Assembly (NCBI GenBank): GCA_900316245.1
Contig: ONCE01000001.1
Location: 120,123 to 184,122 of the forward strand
Length of the DNA stretch: 64,000 nt
DNA from: an uncultured Bacteroidales bacterium
Lineage (GTDB): Bacteria; Bacteroidota; Bacteroidia; Bacteroidales; UBA932
Direction of reading: 5' to 3'
The position numbers were made by a program, and so were the translations under genes. This document shows, one piece after another, positions 6,914-60,830 of this stretch. Every line of letters begins with the position of its first letter. The stretch's first letter is position 1. The notes beneath the pieces are model-generated. The model searched no databases, was not told where the DNA came from, and saw only the letters and a list, made by a program, of their open reading frames with translations.

Positions 6914-8359
6914 ATGGCTCAAAAATTCAACCTCAAGTATTGGGTGTTCCTGCCGCTTGTGCTCGCGATCACCATCTTCCTCTGGGCTGTGCCCGTGTCG
7001 TTCTACGGCATCGAGGCCCTCACCGTCGTGCAGCAGCGTGTTATCGCACTGTTTGTCTTTGCCGCCCTTATGTGGATTTTCGAAATCATCCCCAACTGGG
7101 CTACTTCGCTGCTGGTTATCCTGATTTCCCTGCTTACGGTTTCCAACAGGGGTATCGGCCTGTTCTGTGATCCTCAGTACGGTACGCTGGTCCCTTATGC
7201 CCGTATCATGAGCTCTATGGCAGACCCTGTGGTCATGCTCTTCCTGGGCGGCTTCGTGCTGGCCATCATGGCAGAGAAGTACGGCCTGGACGTCACTATG
7301 GCCCGTGCCCTCCTGAAACTCTTCGGTACCAAGCCGGAGATTGTGCTACTGGGCTTCCTCATCATGATCTCCATCTTCTCGATGTTTATGTCCAACACCG
7401 CCACCGCCGCTATGATGCTGGCCCTCCTCACCCCGGTGCTTTCCAAGCTTCCGGCCGATGACAAGGGTAAGATCGGCCTGGCCCTGTCCATCCCCGTTGC
7501 CGCCAACCTCGGTGGTATCGGCACCCCTATCGGCACCCCTCCCAACGCCACCGCCAAGGGCGCTCTGGAACAGGCCGGTATCGACGTGAGCTTCGGTGAG
7601 TGGTGCGCCCATATGATCCCTTACGTGATCATTATGATTGTGATTGCCTGGATCGTGCTGCGCGTGTTGTTCCCCTTCAAGACCAAGAAGCTTGTGCTTG
7701 AGATCCCCGAAAGCACCCAGAAGAAAGACTGGAAGCTCTATGTGGTATGGATTACCTTCATCGGTACCATCCTCCTGTGGGCAACCGAGCAGATTACCCA
7801 TATCAACTCCAACATCGTTGCCCTCATCCCGCTGGGTGTCTTCACCGCTACGGGCCTGTTCGGCAAGAACGAGATCAAGGAAATCAACTGGACCGTGCTG
7901 TGGCTGGTAGCCGGTGGCTTCTGCCTGGGTTACTGCCTGCAGGATACGGGTCTGGCCAAGGTGCTCATCCAGGCCATTCCGTTTGGCAGCATGAGCGTGG
8001 TGGTGGTGCTTATCATCGCCGGCCTTGTGTGCTACTTCCTGTCCAACTTCATCTCCAACTCCGCTACGGCTGCCCTGCTCATTCCTATCCTGATTGTGGT
8101 GGCCAACGGTATGGCCGATCCTGAGGCTGCCAACAACGCCCAGTTCCTGGCCATGGGTGGCACTTCGGCCATGATTATCTTCATCGCCGTCTGCGCCTCC
8201 ATCGCCATGCTGTTCCCCATCTCCACTCCTCCGAATGCCATTGCTTCCTCTACCGGTATGGTGGAGACCAAGGATATGACCAAGGTGGGTCTGATAATGG
8301 GTGTCATCGGCTTCTTGCTGGGTTACTTCTGGCTTACGAAATTATTCCCGTTCGCATAA
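6914..8359 (+). CDS. DASS/SLC13-family sodium:carboxylate symporter
   Basis: Inner-membrane divalent-anion symporter of the INDY type, predicted to import C4-dicarboxylates, citrate or similar anions with sodium. The 481-aa protein has about 11 hydrophobic segments and the two pseudo-symmetric SNT signatures that bind sodium and substrate: MSNTATAAMM (about residues 157-166) and ISNSATAALL (about 380-390). Each is paired with a GTPIGTPPN or PISTPPNA loop. The stop codon overlaps the start of the porin gene by one base (TAATG), so the two are translationally coupled. Substrate cannot be fixed from sequence. Confidence 0.9.
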   Translation: MAQKFNLKYWVFLPLVLAITIFLWAVPVSFYGIEALTVVQQRVIALFVFAALMWIFEIIPNWATSLLVILISLLTVSNRGIGLFCDPQYGTLVPYARIMSSMADPVVMLFLGGFVLAIMAEKYGLDVTMARALLKLFGTKPEIVLLGFLIMISIFSMFMSNTATAAMMLALLTPVLSKLPADDKGKIGLALSIPVAANLGGIGTPIGTPPNATAKGALEQAGIDVSFGEWCAHMIPYVIIMIVIAWIVLRVLFPFKTKKLVLEIPESTQKKDWKLYVVWITFIGTILLWATEQITHINSNIVALIPLGVFTATGLFGKNEIKEINWTVLWLVAGGFCLGYCLQDTGLAKVLIQAIPFGSMSVVVVLIIAGLVCYFLSNFISNSATAALLIPILIVVANGMADPEAANNAQFLAMGGTSAMIIFIAVCASIAMLFPISTPPNAIASSTGMVETKDMTKVGLIMGVIGFLLGYFWLTKLFPFA

Positions 8360-9615
8360 TGAAAAAAACAATACTGATTGCATTGGCAGCGCTGCTTTCC
8401 GGCAGCGCCGCTTTTGCGCAGGAAGAGAAGCCTGCGCACTTCAAGCTTTACGGCTTCATCCGTAACTATATAGTGGCCGATACCCGTGCCGTGAGTGCCG
8501 GTACCGAAGACCTCTATTTCTATATGCCCAAGGGCCGCGACATGCAGAATGGCATGGATATGAACGACGGTTTCAACTGGCGTTTTGTTTCCCTTACCAC
8601 CCGTCTGGGCCTGGATGTTTCCGGTTACAAGTGGGGAACCATGGGCGTTTCCGGTAAGGTGGAGGCAGACTTTTACTACCTCAGCGGTTCCGTTCCCACC
8701 CTGCGTCTGCGTCAGGCCTTTATGAAACTCAACTGGGACAACAGCCCCGTGGCTCTTACCATCGGCCAGTCCTGGCATCCCATGGCCGCCGATATGCCGC
8801 ATATGAACAATCTGGAGACCGGCGCTCCCTTCAACCCCTTCAACCGCAGCCCTCAGCTCACGGCCGATGTGAACCTGGGATCCGGCTTCAGCCTCACCGC
8901 CAGCATCCTGTACTTGAACCACTACCTGCCCACCGGTCCCGCCGGCAAGAGCAAGGACTACTACAAGTACGGCGCTCCCGAGTTCTTCCTGGGCTTCGCC
9001 TACAAGAATGCCAAGTTCACAGGTAAGCTGGGTGTAGATATGGTGAACATCCGTCCCTACCGCACCATCGCAGACTGGAGGGTCCAGGATGCCCAGGGTC
9101 CCACCATCAAGGTCAAGAGCCTTATGACCACCTTCTCTCCCTTCGTGTTCCTGCAGTACACCAGCGGCAAGTTCCAGCTGCGCGCCAAGAGCATCCTGGC
9201 TCAGGCCGGCGAGCATATGAACCTGCTTTCCGGTTACGGCGTCCATTCTTTCAACGACAACGGAACCATCGAGTATACTCCTATGCAGGACTGGGCCTCC
9301 TTCGTGAGCTTCCAGTACGGCAAGAAGTTCCAGGTGATGGGTATGCTGGGTTATATGAAGCAGCTGGGTACCACCAAGGCCCTCTGTGACAACAACGTAT
9401 GGATGAACACCTCCGCCGACGTGCGCATCCAGCAGGCTTTCCGCGCCACCCCTACCGTGGCCTGGAACCTGGGTAAGTTCACCGTGTCCCTGGAGTACAA
9501 CCTCACCGCCGCCCAGTTTGGCAGCGGCGCCCGCAACGAGCGCGGTATGTTCACCGGCGACAAGGAGTGGATCCTGAATCACCGTTTCATCTGCATGACC
9601 AAGTTCAACTTTTAG
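8359..9615 (+). CDS. Outer-membrane porin (DcaP-like) coupled to the DASS symporter
   Basis: 418-aa beta-barrel protein with signal peptide (MKKTILIALAALLSGSAAFAQ). The body is alternating hydrophobic/polar strands ending in aromatic residues and closes with MTKFNF, a typical barrel C terminus. The opening FKLYGFIRNYIVADTR and the loop GQSWHPM resemble DcaP-type porins. TAATG coupling to the symporter suggests a two-membrane uptake route for the same anion. The last codons and stop lie in a perfect 15-bp palindrome (9603-9634). The family assignment to DcaP is from memory of the pattern and is less sure than the porin call. Confidence 0.75.
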   Translation: MKKTILIALAALLSGSAAFAQEEKPAHFKLYGFIRNYIVADTRAVSAGTEDLYFYMPKGRDMQNGMDMNDGFNWRFVSLTTRLGLDVSGYKWGTMGVSGKVEADFYYLSGSVPTLRLRQAFMKLNWDNSPVALTIGQSWHPMAADMPHMNNLETGAPFNPFNRSPQLTADVNLGSGFSLTASILYLNHYLPTGPAGKSKDYYKYGAPEFFLGFAYKNAKFTGKLGVDMVNIRPYRTIADWRVQDAQGPTIKVKSLMTTFSPFVFLQYTSGKFQLRAKSILAQAGEHMNLLSGYGVHSFNDNGTIEYTPMQDWASFVSFQYGKKFQVMGMLGYMKQLGTTKALCDNNVWMNTSADVRIQQAFRATPTVAWNLGKFTVSLEYNLTAAQFGSGARNERGMFTGDKEWILNHRFICMTKFNF

Positions 9616-9634
9616 GGCACCCTAAAAGTTGAAC
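9603..9634. repeat. Perfect 15-bp palindrome over the porin stop codon
   Basis: Arms GTTCAACTTTTAGGG and CCCTAAAAGTTGAAC with a two-base centre (CA). The left arm is the coding end of the porin gene; the right arm is its exact inverted copy. It immediately precedes a separate terminator. Confidence 0.9.
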
Positions 9635-12206: not shown

Positions 12207-13241
12207 ATGAAAAAAATCCTCCCCATCCTCCTGCTCCCGCTCCTGAGCCTCTCCCTGCACGCCCAGGACCGGGAAGCCGATTCCCTGCGCCACGTCTTTG
12301 GCCGTCAGACCGTAACCTCCGTTAAGAACCGTGCTACGCCCTATGCAGACACCCTGGATACCGGAAATTCTTCCGTCAAGGTGGTCCTGTATAACAACGG
12401 CACCTACCGCTATGTCAAGGACCCTAAACTGGTAGCGGCAGACAGCACCTTCACCGAGTATTGGTCCACCACTACCGTCAATCCCTACAAGGAAGAGCCC
12501 GACGCCCTGCCGGACCGCTTCTCCCTCTGGATTGTGGATACGCTGGATTCATACTGCTGCCCCAATGTGGTCAAGCCCCGTTCCCTGTACGGTTACCGTC
12601 ACGGCCGCCGGCACCAGGGCATAGACCTTCCGTATCCTACCGGTACGCCCGTACCCGCCACCTTCGACGGCCGGGTGCGCATCTCAGATTACGTGGGCGG
12701 ATACGGCAACCTGGTGGTCATCCGCCACGCCAACGGCCTGGAGACCTTCTACGGCCACCTTTCCAAGAGAAGTGTTCAGGCCGGGGACTGGGTGAACGCC
12801 GGAGACATCATCGGCCTGGGCGGCTCCACCGGCCGTTCCACCGGTCCGCACCTGCATTTCGAGACGCGCTACCGCGGTGCCGCCTTTGATCCCTCCTGGC
12901 TCATTGACTTTGAAACTGGCACCCTGCGCCACCGGCTCCTGAAAATCCGTTCCTGGTACTTCAATCCCAACCAGCGGTATGTCCAGAACGTAGACGACGA
13001 GGACGAGATTTTCCGCACCGACGAGGAAGACCGTCTGCTGGCCGAAGAACAGGCCAAGAAGGAAGCCGCCGCCCGTGCCGCCGCAGAGGCTGCCGCTATG
13101 CGTTACCATACGGTCCGCAGCGGCGATACCCTCTACAGCATCGCCCGCAAATACGGCACCACCGTCAAGCGCATCTGCCAGCTCAACGGCATCAAGGAAA
13201 CCACCGTCCTACAGGTCGGTAAACGTCTAAGAGTTCGATAA
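12207..13241 (+). CDS. Secreted M23 peptidase with C-terminal LysM domain
   Basis: 344-aa exported cell-wall hydrolase: signal peptide (MKKILPILLLPLLSLSLHAQ), M23 (LytM) domain at about residues 125-225, a charged Ala/Glu linker, and a LysM peptidoglycan-binding domain at the end (YHTVRSGDTLYSIARKYGTT). Zinc ligands are present (RHQGIDLP and GPHLHFE), so an active endopeptidase is expected. The stop codon is inside the left arm of the structured element 13238-13377, facing def. Confidence 0.9.
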   Translation: MKKILPILLLPLLSLSLHAQDREADSLRHVFGRQTVTSVKNRATPYADTLDTGNSSVKVVLYNNGTYRYVKDPKLVAADSTFTEYWSTTTVNPYKEEPDALPDRFSLWIVDTLDSYCCPNVVKPRSLYGYRHGRRHQGIDLPYPTGTPVPATFDGRVRISDYVGGYGNLVVIRHANGLETFYGHLSKRSVQAGDWVNAGDIIGLGGSTGRSTGPHLHFETRYRGAAFDPSWLIDFETGTLRHRLLKIRSWYFNPNQRYVQNVDDEDEIFRTDEEDRLLAEEQAKKEAAARAAAEAAAMRYHTVRSGDTLYSIARKYGTTVKRICQLNGIKETTVLQVGKRLRVR

Positions 13242-13377
13242 AAGAAGAGGCACAGCCTCCGGAAACCTTCGCCACCCTCGGCGATTAGAGGGAGGGACCC
13301 GCCCCGAAGGGGTGGGAGGGCCGGAGCTTCGCGCAGCGAAGCGTAGGGGTTTCCGGAGGCTGTGCCTCTTCTTTTAT
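13238..13377. repeat. Structured inverted-repeat element A between convergent genes
   Basis: Perfect 30-bp arms (13238-13267 and 13348-13377) that contain the stop codons of both flanking genes. The 80-bp core folds into three hairpins: H1 CCCTC/GAGGG (13275-13292), H2 CCCGCCCC-GAA-GGGGTGGG (13298-13316), H3 GCTTCGC-gca-GCGAAGC (13326-13342). The core is shared with the element at 42440 while the arms are not. The A/T-ended arms could also act as a bidirectional terminator. Confidence 0.85.
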
Positions 13378-13928
13378 TTAAGTTTCGAGTTATAGTGAGG
13401 GTGGACTTTGCCCTTGGAGATGTTTTGGAGCTTGCTGGCTAACATCTTTTTGCGGATGGGAGCGGCGTGGTCCGTGAAGAGGTCTCCGTCCAGGTGGGAC
13501 ATCTCGTGCTGGATCATACGGCAGGCAAAGTTGTCAAAGTCCTCGGTGACTTCCTGCAGGTCCTCGTTGTAATAACGCACTTTCATCTTTTTGGGCCGAA
13601 GGACATCGCAGTAGATGCCGGGAATGGAGAGGCAGCCCTCCGAGTAGGTCACCTGTTCCTCGCTTTCCTCCACAATCTCCGGGTTAATGAGGGTACGGCG
13701 GAAACCCTTGAGGTAGGGATAGGCATCGGATACCACGTCTCCGTCTACGATTACCACGCGCTGGCTCACGCCAATCTGCGGGGCGGCGAGGCCACAGCCA
13801 TCGGCCCTTACCAGGGTGTCCTTGAGGTCTTGCACCAGGGTGGCAATTCCTTCCTTGTCTTTTAAGTCGGCGGGGTCCGCCTTCCGGCGCAGCACTTCGG
13901 CGCCGTAAAGATAGATGGGCTTGATCAT
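13374..13928 (-). CDS. def: Peptide deformylase
   Basis: Removes the formyl group from the N-terminal methionine of nascent proteins. The three metal/active-site motifs are visible: GCGLAAPQIG, EGCLSIPG (ligand Cys) and QHEMSHLDG (two ligand His and catalytic Glu). The last motif has Ser where HExDH is usual; this position is not a ligand. 184 aa, normal length. It starts inside the ruvX stop (ATGA overlap), so it is translationally coupled to ruvX. The stop lies in element A. Confidence 0.95.
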   Translation of the reverse strand: MIKPIYLYGAEVLRRKADPADLKDKEGIATLVQDLKDTLVRADGCGLAAPQIGVSQRVVIVDGDVVSDAYPYLKGFRRTLINPEIVEESEEQVTYSEGCLSIPGIYCDVLRPKKMKVRYYNEDLQEVTEDFDNFACRMIQHEMSHLDGDLFTDHAAPIRKKMLASKLQNISKGKVHPHYNSKLK

Positions 13929-19132: not shown

Positions 19133-19205
19133 CGGGATGTAGCGCAGTTGGTAGCGCACTACGTTCGGGACGTAGGGGTCGCTCGTTCGAGTCGAGTCAT
19201 CCCGA
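19133..19205 (+). tRNA. tRNA-Pro (anticodon CGG)
   Basis: Acceptor CGGGATG/CATCCCG, D arm GCGC/GCGC, anticodon stem CTACG/CGTAG with loop TTCGGGA (anticodon CGG), T arm with GTTCGAGTC. No encoded CCA. No TAnnTTTG box is seen just upstream, so it may be processed from read-through of the rpsT unit. Confidence 0.93.
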
Positions 19206-19253
19206 CACGAAAAAAGGAAGCTGTTCGGCTTCCTTTTTTCGTGCCGGGATGAC
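19196..19253 (+). terminator. Terminator extended into an inverted copy of the tRNA-Pro 3' end
   Basis: 26-bp arms (19196-19221 and 19228-19253) with one mismatch and a six-base loop. The inner part (CACGAAAAAAGGAAGC with GCTTCCTTTTTTCGTG) is a normal terminator; the outer part pairs the tRNA 3' acceptor strand (GTCATCCCG) with a downstream CGGGATGAC. Confidence 0.85.
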
Positions 19254-42417: not shown

Positions 42418-42439
42418 ATTGTTCTCTAACTTATTATCT

Positions 42440-42566
42440 GTTTCCGCTCTGGTATACCTCCCGGAACCTGTAGCCACCCTCGGCTTCATAAGAGGGAGGG
42501 GCCCGCCGCGAAGCGGTGGGAGGGGTCGCGAAGCGACGGTTCAGGGAGGTATACCAGAGCGGAAAC
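42440..42566. repeat. Structured inverted-repeat element B in the metY leader
   Basis: Arms 42440-42468 and 42538-42566: 23 paired bases, one mismatch, then 5 more. The core has H1 CCCTC/GAGGG (42477-42496), H2 CCCGCCGC-GAA-GCGGTGGG (42502-42520) and H3 GTCGC-gaa-GCGAC (42525-42537). Its core aligns with element A, including a compensatory C-G to G-C change in H2, while the arms are unrelated in sequence. It lies between the metY -7 box and the metY start codon. Confidence 0.85.
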
Positions 42567-42573
42567 AAAGGTA
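42566..42573 (-). promoter_or_regulatory. -7 box for metY-metX-thrA
   Basis: TACCTTTG on the minus strand with a TTG 20 bp upstream; the transcript would begin in the right arm of element B and carry nearly the whole element. Confidence 0.6.
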
Positions 42574-59697: not shown

Positions 59698-59770
59698 CTG
59701 GATGTAGCGCAGTTGGTAGCGCACCTGGTTAGGGACCAGGAGGTCGCTGGTTCAAGTCCAGTCATCCAGA
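59698..59770 (+). tRNA. tRNA-Pro (anticodon AGG)
   Basis: Acceptor CTGGATG/CATCCAG, D arm GCGC/GCGC, anticodon stem CCTGG/CCAGG with loop TTAGGGA, giving AGG. T arm GGTTCAAGT. No encoded CCA. Otherwise very similar to tRNA-Pro(CGG) at 19133. A34 is uncommon in bacterial tRNA-Pro. Confidence 0.9.
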
Positions 59771-59815
59771 CTAAAAAGCAGAGCGAAGCGCTCTGCTTTT
59801 TTGCGTCTGGATGAC
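59761..59815 (+). terminator. Terminator extended into an inverted copy of the tRNA-Pro(AGG) 3' end
   Basis: Inner hairpin AAAAAGCAGAGCG-aag-CGCTCTGCTTTTTT; outer arms GTCATCCAGAC (59761-59771, tRNA 3' end) and GTCTGGATGAC (59805-59815). Same arrangement as at 19196-19253. Confidence 0.85.
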
Positions 59816-59837
59816 TTCGTTGAACCTCTTTTTACCT

Positions 59838-60793: not shown

Positions 60794-60796
60794 ATA

Positions 60797-60830
60797 ATAA
60801 TCCCCGAGATTAACTCTCGGGGATTATTGT
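60797..60830. terminator. Bidirectional terminator, bactofilin 2 / acid phosphatase
   Basis: AATAATCCCCGAGA-ttaac-TCTCGGGGATTATT, a perfect 14-bp stem between convergent genes. Confidence 0.85.

Follow-up and report, generated by a model that had tools for sequence, protein, structure and literature searches.

A dispersed, probably mobile palindromic element with a predicted pseudoknotted core in uncultured Bacteroidales

Two long palindromes in a 64-kb stretch of DNA from an uncultured Bacteroidales bacterium (the whole stretch analysed, hereafter the window) appear, from comparison of their sequences, to belong to one family of dispersed palindromic elements that is probably mobile. The element is about 100–195 bp long, and its core of about 57–130 nt holds three hairpins and is enclosed by two arms that pair with each other. 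Alignments across genomes and loci indicate that the cores resemble each other by genome, and that the arms lean to the locus.

Two copies in the window and the fold of their core

The original prediction had described two structures here, and both proved to be real and correctly placed. Their arms are complementary at 30/30 and 29/30 positions, both copies rank top among the inverted repeats of the window, and none of 200 dinucleotide shuffles per strand folded as well as the native sequence (z −10.9 for copy 1 and −10.4 for copy 2). The spacer between the arms is 80 nt in copy 1 and 69 nt in copy 2. The given strand folds somewhat better than the opposite one in copy 1 (−99.4 vs −93.0 kcal/mol) and in copy 2 (−87.0 vs −81.4 kcal/mol). 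A covariance model made from 60 copies, both window copies included, matched the window at E <= 1 only at copies 1 and 2 (2e-16 and 9.9e-13), in agreement with the core that they had been said to share. The features are as follows.

13238 to 13267, + strand: left palindromic arm of copy 1, 30/30 complementary to the right arm
13269 to 13284, + strand: P1 hairpin of copy 1, TCGCC-ACCCTC-GGCGA, from sequence and from P1 covariation over 60 copies
13275 to 13292, + strand: predicted pseudoknot helix of copy 1, loop CCCTC (13275–13279) with GAGGG (13288–13292); H1 of the original prediction
13298 to 13316, + strand: H2 hairpin of copy 1, CCCGCCCC-GAA-GGGGTGGG, from sequence, fold and covariation
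13326 to 13342, + strand: H3 hairpin of copy 1, GCTTCGC-GCA-GCGAAGC, from sequence and fold
13348 to 13377, + strand: right palindromic arm of copy 1, 30/30 complementary to the left arm
42439 to 42468, + strand: left palindromic arm of copy 2, 29/30 complementary to the right arm
42472 to 42485, + strand: P1 hairpin of copy 2, AGCC-ACCCTC-GGCT, from sequence and covariance-model match
42477 to 42496, + strand: predicted pseudoknot helix of copy 2, loop CCCTC (42477–42481) with GAGGG (42492–42496)
42502 to 42520, + strand: H2 hairpin of copy 2, CCCGCCGC-GAA-GCGGTGGG, with G-C at one pair that reads C-G in copy 1
42525 to 42537, + strand: H3 hairpin of copy 2, GTCGC-GAA-GCGAC, from sequence and fold
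42538 to 42567, + strand: right palindromic arm of copy 2, 29/30 complementary to the left arm

Copy 1 is located between two convergent genes, 12207–13241 and 13374–13928 (minus strand). As had been claimed, its arms include the stop codons of both: TAA (13239–13241) of the first gene lies in the left arm, and TTA (13374–13376), the stop of the minus-strand gene, lies in the right arm. Copy 2 is located upstream of an lrp-like gene, with an oppositely running frame to its left. The gene names used in this work (def-, LysM-, lrp-, MtaB-, YgiQ-, YggS- and RlmB-like) are presumptive and come from our own recognition of the sequences.

P1 is a short hairpin with the six-base loop RCCCNN, and the last five bases of this loop pair with the pentamer immediately 3' of the hairpin, which gives an H-type pseudoknot; 3' of the pseudoknot the core continues as RGGGRCCC, H2 and GGGAGGG, and then H3. 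The pairing CCCTC/GAGGG had been drawn as a simple hairpin. The pairing stands, and the topology is corrected to a helix from the P1 loop to the downstream pentamer; the minimum-free-energy fold of copy 1 draws it as a hairpin because the program cannot draw pseudoknots. The exchange of a C-G pair for G-C in H2 with the pairing kept can be read directly from CCCGCCCC/GGGGTGGG and CCCGCCGC/GCGGTGGG.

A descriptor requiring the perfect pseudoknot matched 238 times in 367 loci and 0 times when the sequence was reversed. Seven pair types occurred: CCCTC/GAGGG (192), CCCCC/GGGGG (19), CCCAT/ATGGG (11), CCCGT/ACGGG (10), CCCAC/GTGGG (4) and two others (1 each). Because this requirement biases the pair count, we ran a second descriptor that does not demand the pseudoknot. 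The results showed that both variable pairs were Watson-Crick in 203 of 207 matches, with G-U in 2 and a mismatch in 2, compared to 149 of 207 expected if the pairs were independent; the reversed sequence again gave 0 matches. When the loop was other than CCCTC, both variable pairs were Watson-Crick in 28/32.

Covariation was analyzed over 60 aligned cores, which had been selected by means of the pseudoknot-requiring descriptor. Paired cells amounted to 96% vs 38–57% in slid controls, and 94 cells were changed on both sides vs 19.4 in shuffles (0/500 shuffles as high). Changes on both sides were found in 5/6 pairs of P1 and 2/5 pairs of the pseudoknot, whose remaining three pairs are invariant. 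Two of the five covariation measures were weak, with 112/500 shuffles as high for further pair types and 8/500 for pairs changed on both sides. The fourth pair of H2 was G-U in 29 cores, A-U in 28 and G-C in 2, and the core strand therefore forms the better structure. These results suggest that the helix first named H1 is the pseudoknot helix, and that its predicted pairing is kept as the sequence changes.

Distribution of the family and its insertion sites

Covariance-model searches (E <= 0.001) found 17 copies in the genome that contains the window and at least one copy in 50 of 61 genomes of the genus, with up to 48 copies in one of them (G027). The core thus recurs widely and is not limited to two loci, which supports the original idea of a mobile-looking element built around a conserved core. 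DNA searches found several more copies in the own genome (35 contigs) and matches in 22 of 61 relatives' genomes, confined to the genus. Five genomes of an order-wide sample of 295 matched the model at E <= 1e-4: the own genome, another genome of its family (G186), and three genomes that belong to three other families (G088, G238 and G268). Only one of ten loci viewed in G238 (L404) fits the descriptor. On contigs C58 and C56 of G238 (L412/L415, L422/L426) the model matches stand in close inverted pairs about 50–115 bp apart.

An exact pattern scan of named genomes gave at least 119 stretches; the 80 matches listed are all Bacteroidales/Bacteroidia records, including one Candidatus Coprenecus, and many of them are, judging by their titles, from ruminant or horse gut. 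We suspect the host genus to be Candidatus Cryptobacteroides. The exact core pattern had 0 matches in viral contigs, and carriage of the element by phage was rejected on this ground. A search against Rfam reached the gathering score in the window at tRNAs only, and gave no match at E <= 1 for loci L001–L006. A literature search, mostly of open-access papers, found no publications on this element family. Longer variants occur at L006 (1484–1680) and L011 (1381–1570), sited in the YggS-like gene and another frame; their left part is the same, and the different inner section has a hairpin GGCGCTC-TGAT-GAGCGCC.

Copies sit intergenically and, open in frame in both orientations, within genes. Of 159 elements, 78 (36 sense, 42 antisense) were located inside an open frame 600 nt or longer that leaves 150 nt to either side, and the same held for 966 of 1500 stretches drawn at random from these loci; the in-gene share is not unbiased, because some loci were fetched through their gene, and the samples for the arm, consensus and flip counts include such loci as well. 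The in-frame copies read were L004, L006, L017, L023, L036, L051 and L053. Translational bypass or splicing of in-gene copies was rejected, since copies in MtaB-, YgiQ-, YggS- and RlmB-like genes are open in frame; some YgiQ-like genes of other genomes have one stop within the match. At the MtaB-like gene, 29 of 30 loci were read; they include empty sites, sites with remnants or with another kind of repeat, and elements in either orientation.

A host-functional structured RNA (a regulator or terminator family), duplicated and kept by selection, would explain the strong covariation with its pseudoknot, and would fit the location of both window copies at gene borders. We consider it quite improbable, given the copies within long frames in both senses (a sample biased by the gene-fetched loci), the patchy occupancy at orthologous sites and the lack of a matching Rfam family.

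The site of copy 1 is empty in loci L131–L133, where the two stops abut (AAATAG/CTAGCG, AAATAA/CTAACG), and L130 has an element-free spacer between the stops; the neighbour differs in the other relatives viewed. The whole sequence between the two stops is inserted in the own genome. The copy 2 site is also occupied in G005 and G061, lacks the element in G028, G003, G064, G033 and the more distant G004, and carries a different palindromic repeat in G062. No long hairpin was seen at the empty copy 1 (def-like/LysM-like) junction or lrp-like site, and the slight symmetry at these two sites (TAG/CTA; TTTG..CAAA), of 3–5 bp by eye at the lrp-like site, is short enough for chance. Insertion of L005 into an old hairpin was rejected as well: in 13 of 15 relatives the best hairpin in 140 nt scores 4–7 vs the 10-bp outer stem at L005 (L431 and L435 were unreadable, a few rows were false gene ends, and the same next gene was recognised by eye only in G016 and G075). 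In the best-matching flank pair, L324/L077 (93, 91%), a short palindrome, AGGATAATATCC, stands where the element would be, and the junctions do not align; no transposition event was seen directly.

The comparison of occupied and empty sites that had been proposed gave patchy occupancy, and showed no long palindrome predating insertion at the empty sites read; targeting of hairpin tips, as originally suggested, finds no support in the empty sites read at copy 1, the lrp-like gene and L005. A related explanation treats the core as a homing module that enters the tips of pre-existing hairpins, for example bidirectional terminators, with the old hairpin remaining as the arms. Coreless local hairpins are present in the window (I3, I8, I12, I14, I17), the arms of copy 1, with their A-run, GC stem and T-run, resemble a bidirectional terminator, an outer 10-bp stem is seen by eye outside a direct repeat at L005, and in G268 three near-identical cores lie inside unrelated paired arms. 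The empty sites just described, the arms within coding genes, which are hardly old terminators, and the existence of an arm consensus (see below) make this explanation unlikely.

Other palindromic repeats share the sites or protein loops of the element at L163 (lrp-like, G062), L190–L192 (RlmB-like) and L075 (MtaB-like), including repeats with the translations HAERSEAS or HSERSEES. Two inverted copies about 1 kb apart at L114 (G016) had the look of transposon ends, but an autonomous partner between them was rejected, as only overlapping frames of 82–148 aa were found there and none was recognised by eye. No mobilising gene turned up in the sequences read.

Arms of the element and their relation to the core

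The near-perfect inverted repeats reported around the two cores (30/30 and 29/30) are typical of the family. An arm repeat score of at least 10 was obtained in 188 of 210 rows (median 27 nt, mean identity 92.8%, 45 perfect) and good arms were absent in 22; at least three rows (L346 5993; L366 2729 and 3856) are second registers of elements already listed. In 300 random draws the median score was 6.0 and the 95th percentile 8.7, with one draw of 26.7 that perhaps landed on an element. Anchoring 160 arms on P1 revealed a weak consensus with a sharp end at position −31 (31 nt before the P1 loop): the inner part is CTCCGGAAACC-like, the middle is almost free and the outer block is G-rich. Its information is about 8.5 of 48 bits over 24 nt (summed by hand). 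Past this end the information is about zero, while inverted pairing continues for about 5 bp (76, 74, 66, 61 and 48% at positions 1–5) and then falls to 31–42% at positions 6–16, vs 24–27% expected. The degenerate consensus together with the paired non-consensus flank therefore indicates that the arms belong partly to the element and partly to the locus. Accordingly, the arms, described before as without similarity between loci, are largely locus-specific and yet not wholly unlike; and the idea that the flanks are local sequence copied in inverse orientation holds for the paired non-consensus flank, and fails as a purely local origin because a fixed-length consensus exists. The paired flank may come from inverted copying at insertion or from later template-switch extension.

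Direct repeats at the ends were in weak excess. At none of the shifts tested did a repeat of a given length of at least 4 nt occur in more than 6 of the 158 elements; repeats of 4 nt at the consensus end occurred in 6 vs 1.1 expected, and flanks with a common stretch of at least 6 nt in 7/158 vs 2.4 expected. A uniform target duplication, suggested by repeats seen by eye at L005, L006 and L023/L189, was not supported, as only this weak excess remained over the 158 elements.

To compare cores and arms, 75 of 79 labelled elements were usable. The H2 score was 0.50 within genomes vs 0.23 between genomes, and the arm score 0.41 vs 0.34 (0/1000 label shuffles as high); the left and right arms of one element scored 0.88. 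In a two-way table of 17 elements from 4 loci (MtaB-, YgiQ-, lrp- and RlmB-like) and 8 genomes, the H2 score was 0.67 for the same genome, 0.33 for the same locus and 0.31 for neither; the corresponding arm scores were 0.42, 0.48 and 0.38. Cores, including the variable H2, are nearly identical within copy groups of G014, G016 and G011, with most arms different; arms are partly alike within G011, and the copies of a G016 subfamily (L114, L118–L120) have arms and flanks in common. The slight likeness of same-genome arms and the shared arms of this subfamily therefore suggest that the arms are partly element-borne. The genome-specific H2 could reflect independent insertions at hot spots and not conversion, except where the arms are orthologous.

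Orthologous arms were found in a YgiQ-like trio, L220 (G061), L221 (G062) and L224 (G005), in which the arms are kept save single differences. Each H2 of the trio is distinct, and that of L224 resembles the H2 of L161, another G005 copy. L220 and L224 compared with L221 have an arm score of 0.91 and the opposite core orientation. Of 35 orthologous pairs whose flanks match at 80% or more, 19 were flipped, mostly at the YgiQ-like gene and hence not independent; the pairs come mostly from few genes and share members, and one H2 (L033) was unparsed and scored 0. Arm differences were counted in 12 of 57 pairs (flanks of at least 78%, 17-nt arms, at least 12/17 equal on one side), with two trios that share members. 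The results showed 19 mirrored differences vs 1.64 expected under arm independence, 15 in one arm only and 1 in both arms but unlike.

Proposed explanation and known systems

The explanation that we favour, and regard as probable with some reserve, is an element that resembles those known from Rickettsia. Its core would spread, or be converted, from one locus to another, and its palindrome would be homogenised, extended and perhaps flipped by template switching. A putative trans-acting enzyme would recognise the core in its folded form, either RNA or single-stranded DNA, a step proposed because mainly the core structure is kept. Cores would be exchanged or re-copied between resident loci faster than arms, through conversion or through new insertion within arms already present. 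Template switching during replication, a host process and not part of the transposition chemistry, would act at the hairpin and produce the mirror symmetry of the arms and its spread into the locus flank, and perhaps also the core flips. Cores common across loci are not explained by template switching, and therefore transposition, conversion or core replacement is needed in addition.

When replication switches template at inverted repeats, arms can be homogenised and spacers inverted, coding DNA included (PMC8604942), and hairpins can be created and perfected (PMC8794818). Quasipalindrome mutagenesis of this kind, as far as these texts describe it, would explain the mirrored change, the perfection and extension of the palindrome and the inversion of the spacer; it is a mutation mechanism and not an element. 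One reservation concerns the flips: the spacers inverted in the cases given in PMC8604942 are 2–5 bp, and those here are 60–130 nt, which weakens the template-switch account of them.

A rather unlikely variant is a mobile module without fixed ends, with the pseudoknotted core as its sole strictly conserved part, in which each copy would gain fresh mirror-symmetric arms from or at the target and cores would later replace one another in resident arms.

An ordinary MITE, moved by a transposase through its own terminal inverted repeats, which in old copies drifted with the pairing kept, is less than probable, although we take it seriously. Bacterial MITEs, as portrayed in the portions available of PMC10969869 and PMC2229807, are like the present family small and multi-copy, with inverted repeats and no coding gene of their own. 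The fixed-length arm consensus with its sharp outer end, the partly alike arms of one genome such as G011, the arms and flanks common to the G016 subfamily and the weak excess of short direct repeats agree with a MITE, and old copies may have lost their target-site duplications. In contrast, the family shows no uniform target-site duplication over 158 elements, and its arms are nearly free in sequence and fixed in pairing. Shared terminal repeats amount to the consensus of about 8.5 bits over 24 nt and one subfamily with shared arms, which leaves little for recognition of the ends by sequence. Moreover, the arms of 46 same-genome pairs with like H2 score only 0.47 on average and 0.74 at most.

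Of the known kinds, Rickettsia palindromic elements would be, by analogy, the nearest to the element with a spreading or converted core; the present family would work like them, a likeness by description and not by sequence relation. In the available text of PMC2229807 and PMC10969869 these are dispersed palindromic elements of 105–146 bp that lie intergenically and in frame in conserved protein genes. Both families are dispersed palindromic units of roughly 100–150 bp, with some here of up to about 195 bp, and both form in-frame stop-free insertions in conserved protein genes. The hosts differ, Rickettsia on one side and another phylum on the other (the 80 listed matches are Bacteroidales/Bacteroidia), and the covarying pseudoknotted core, the locus-leaning arms, the core flips and the genome-alike cores are features described here for the present family. 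REP elements are likewise dispersed palindromes, with a length of 20–40 bp in the part of PMC3733652 available, compared to about 100–195 bp with a three-hairpin core in this family.

The family, abundant within a large genus of uncultured Bacteroidales (by named records) and without an Rfam match, would add to the palindromes with in-frame insertions in protein genes. Its division into a core tied to the genome and arms that lean to the locus offers a natural test of the making, perfection and flipping of palindromes in bacteria, and the predicted pseudoknot points to a putative structure-reading factor.

Because coreless palindromes and hairpins that mirror the end of a tRNA (I3, I9) occur in the window, it may be the genome as a whole, and not just the element, that tends to extend palindromes. 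Inverted copies of tRNA 3' ends were rejected as a general feature, since 1 of 15 distinct flanked tRNAs passed and 0 in the upstream control.

At 19196–19253 and 59760–59816, terminator-like hairpins behind two tRNA genes run into an inverted copy of the last 10–11 nt of the tRNA; both inverted copies extend a few bases beyond it, and the tRNA end could pair with the downstream sequence. Perfect coreless palindromes of 15 and 14 bp lie near gene ends at 9603–9634 and 60796–60828, and the former includes the last codons and the stop of the frame 8359–9615.
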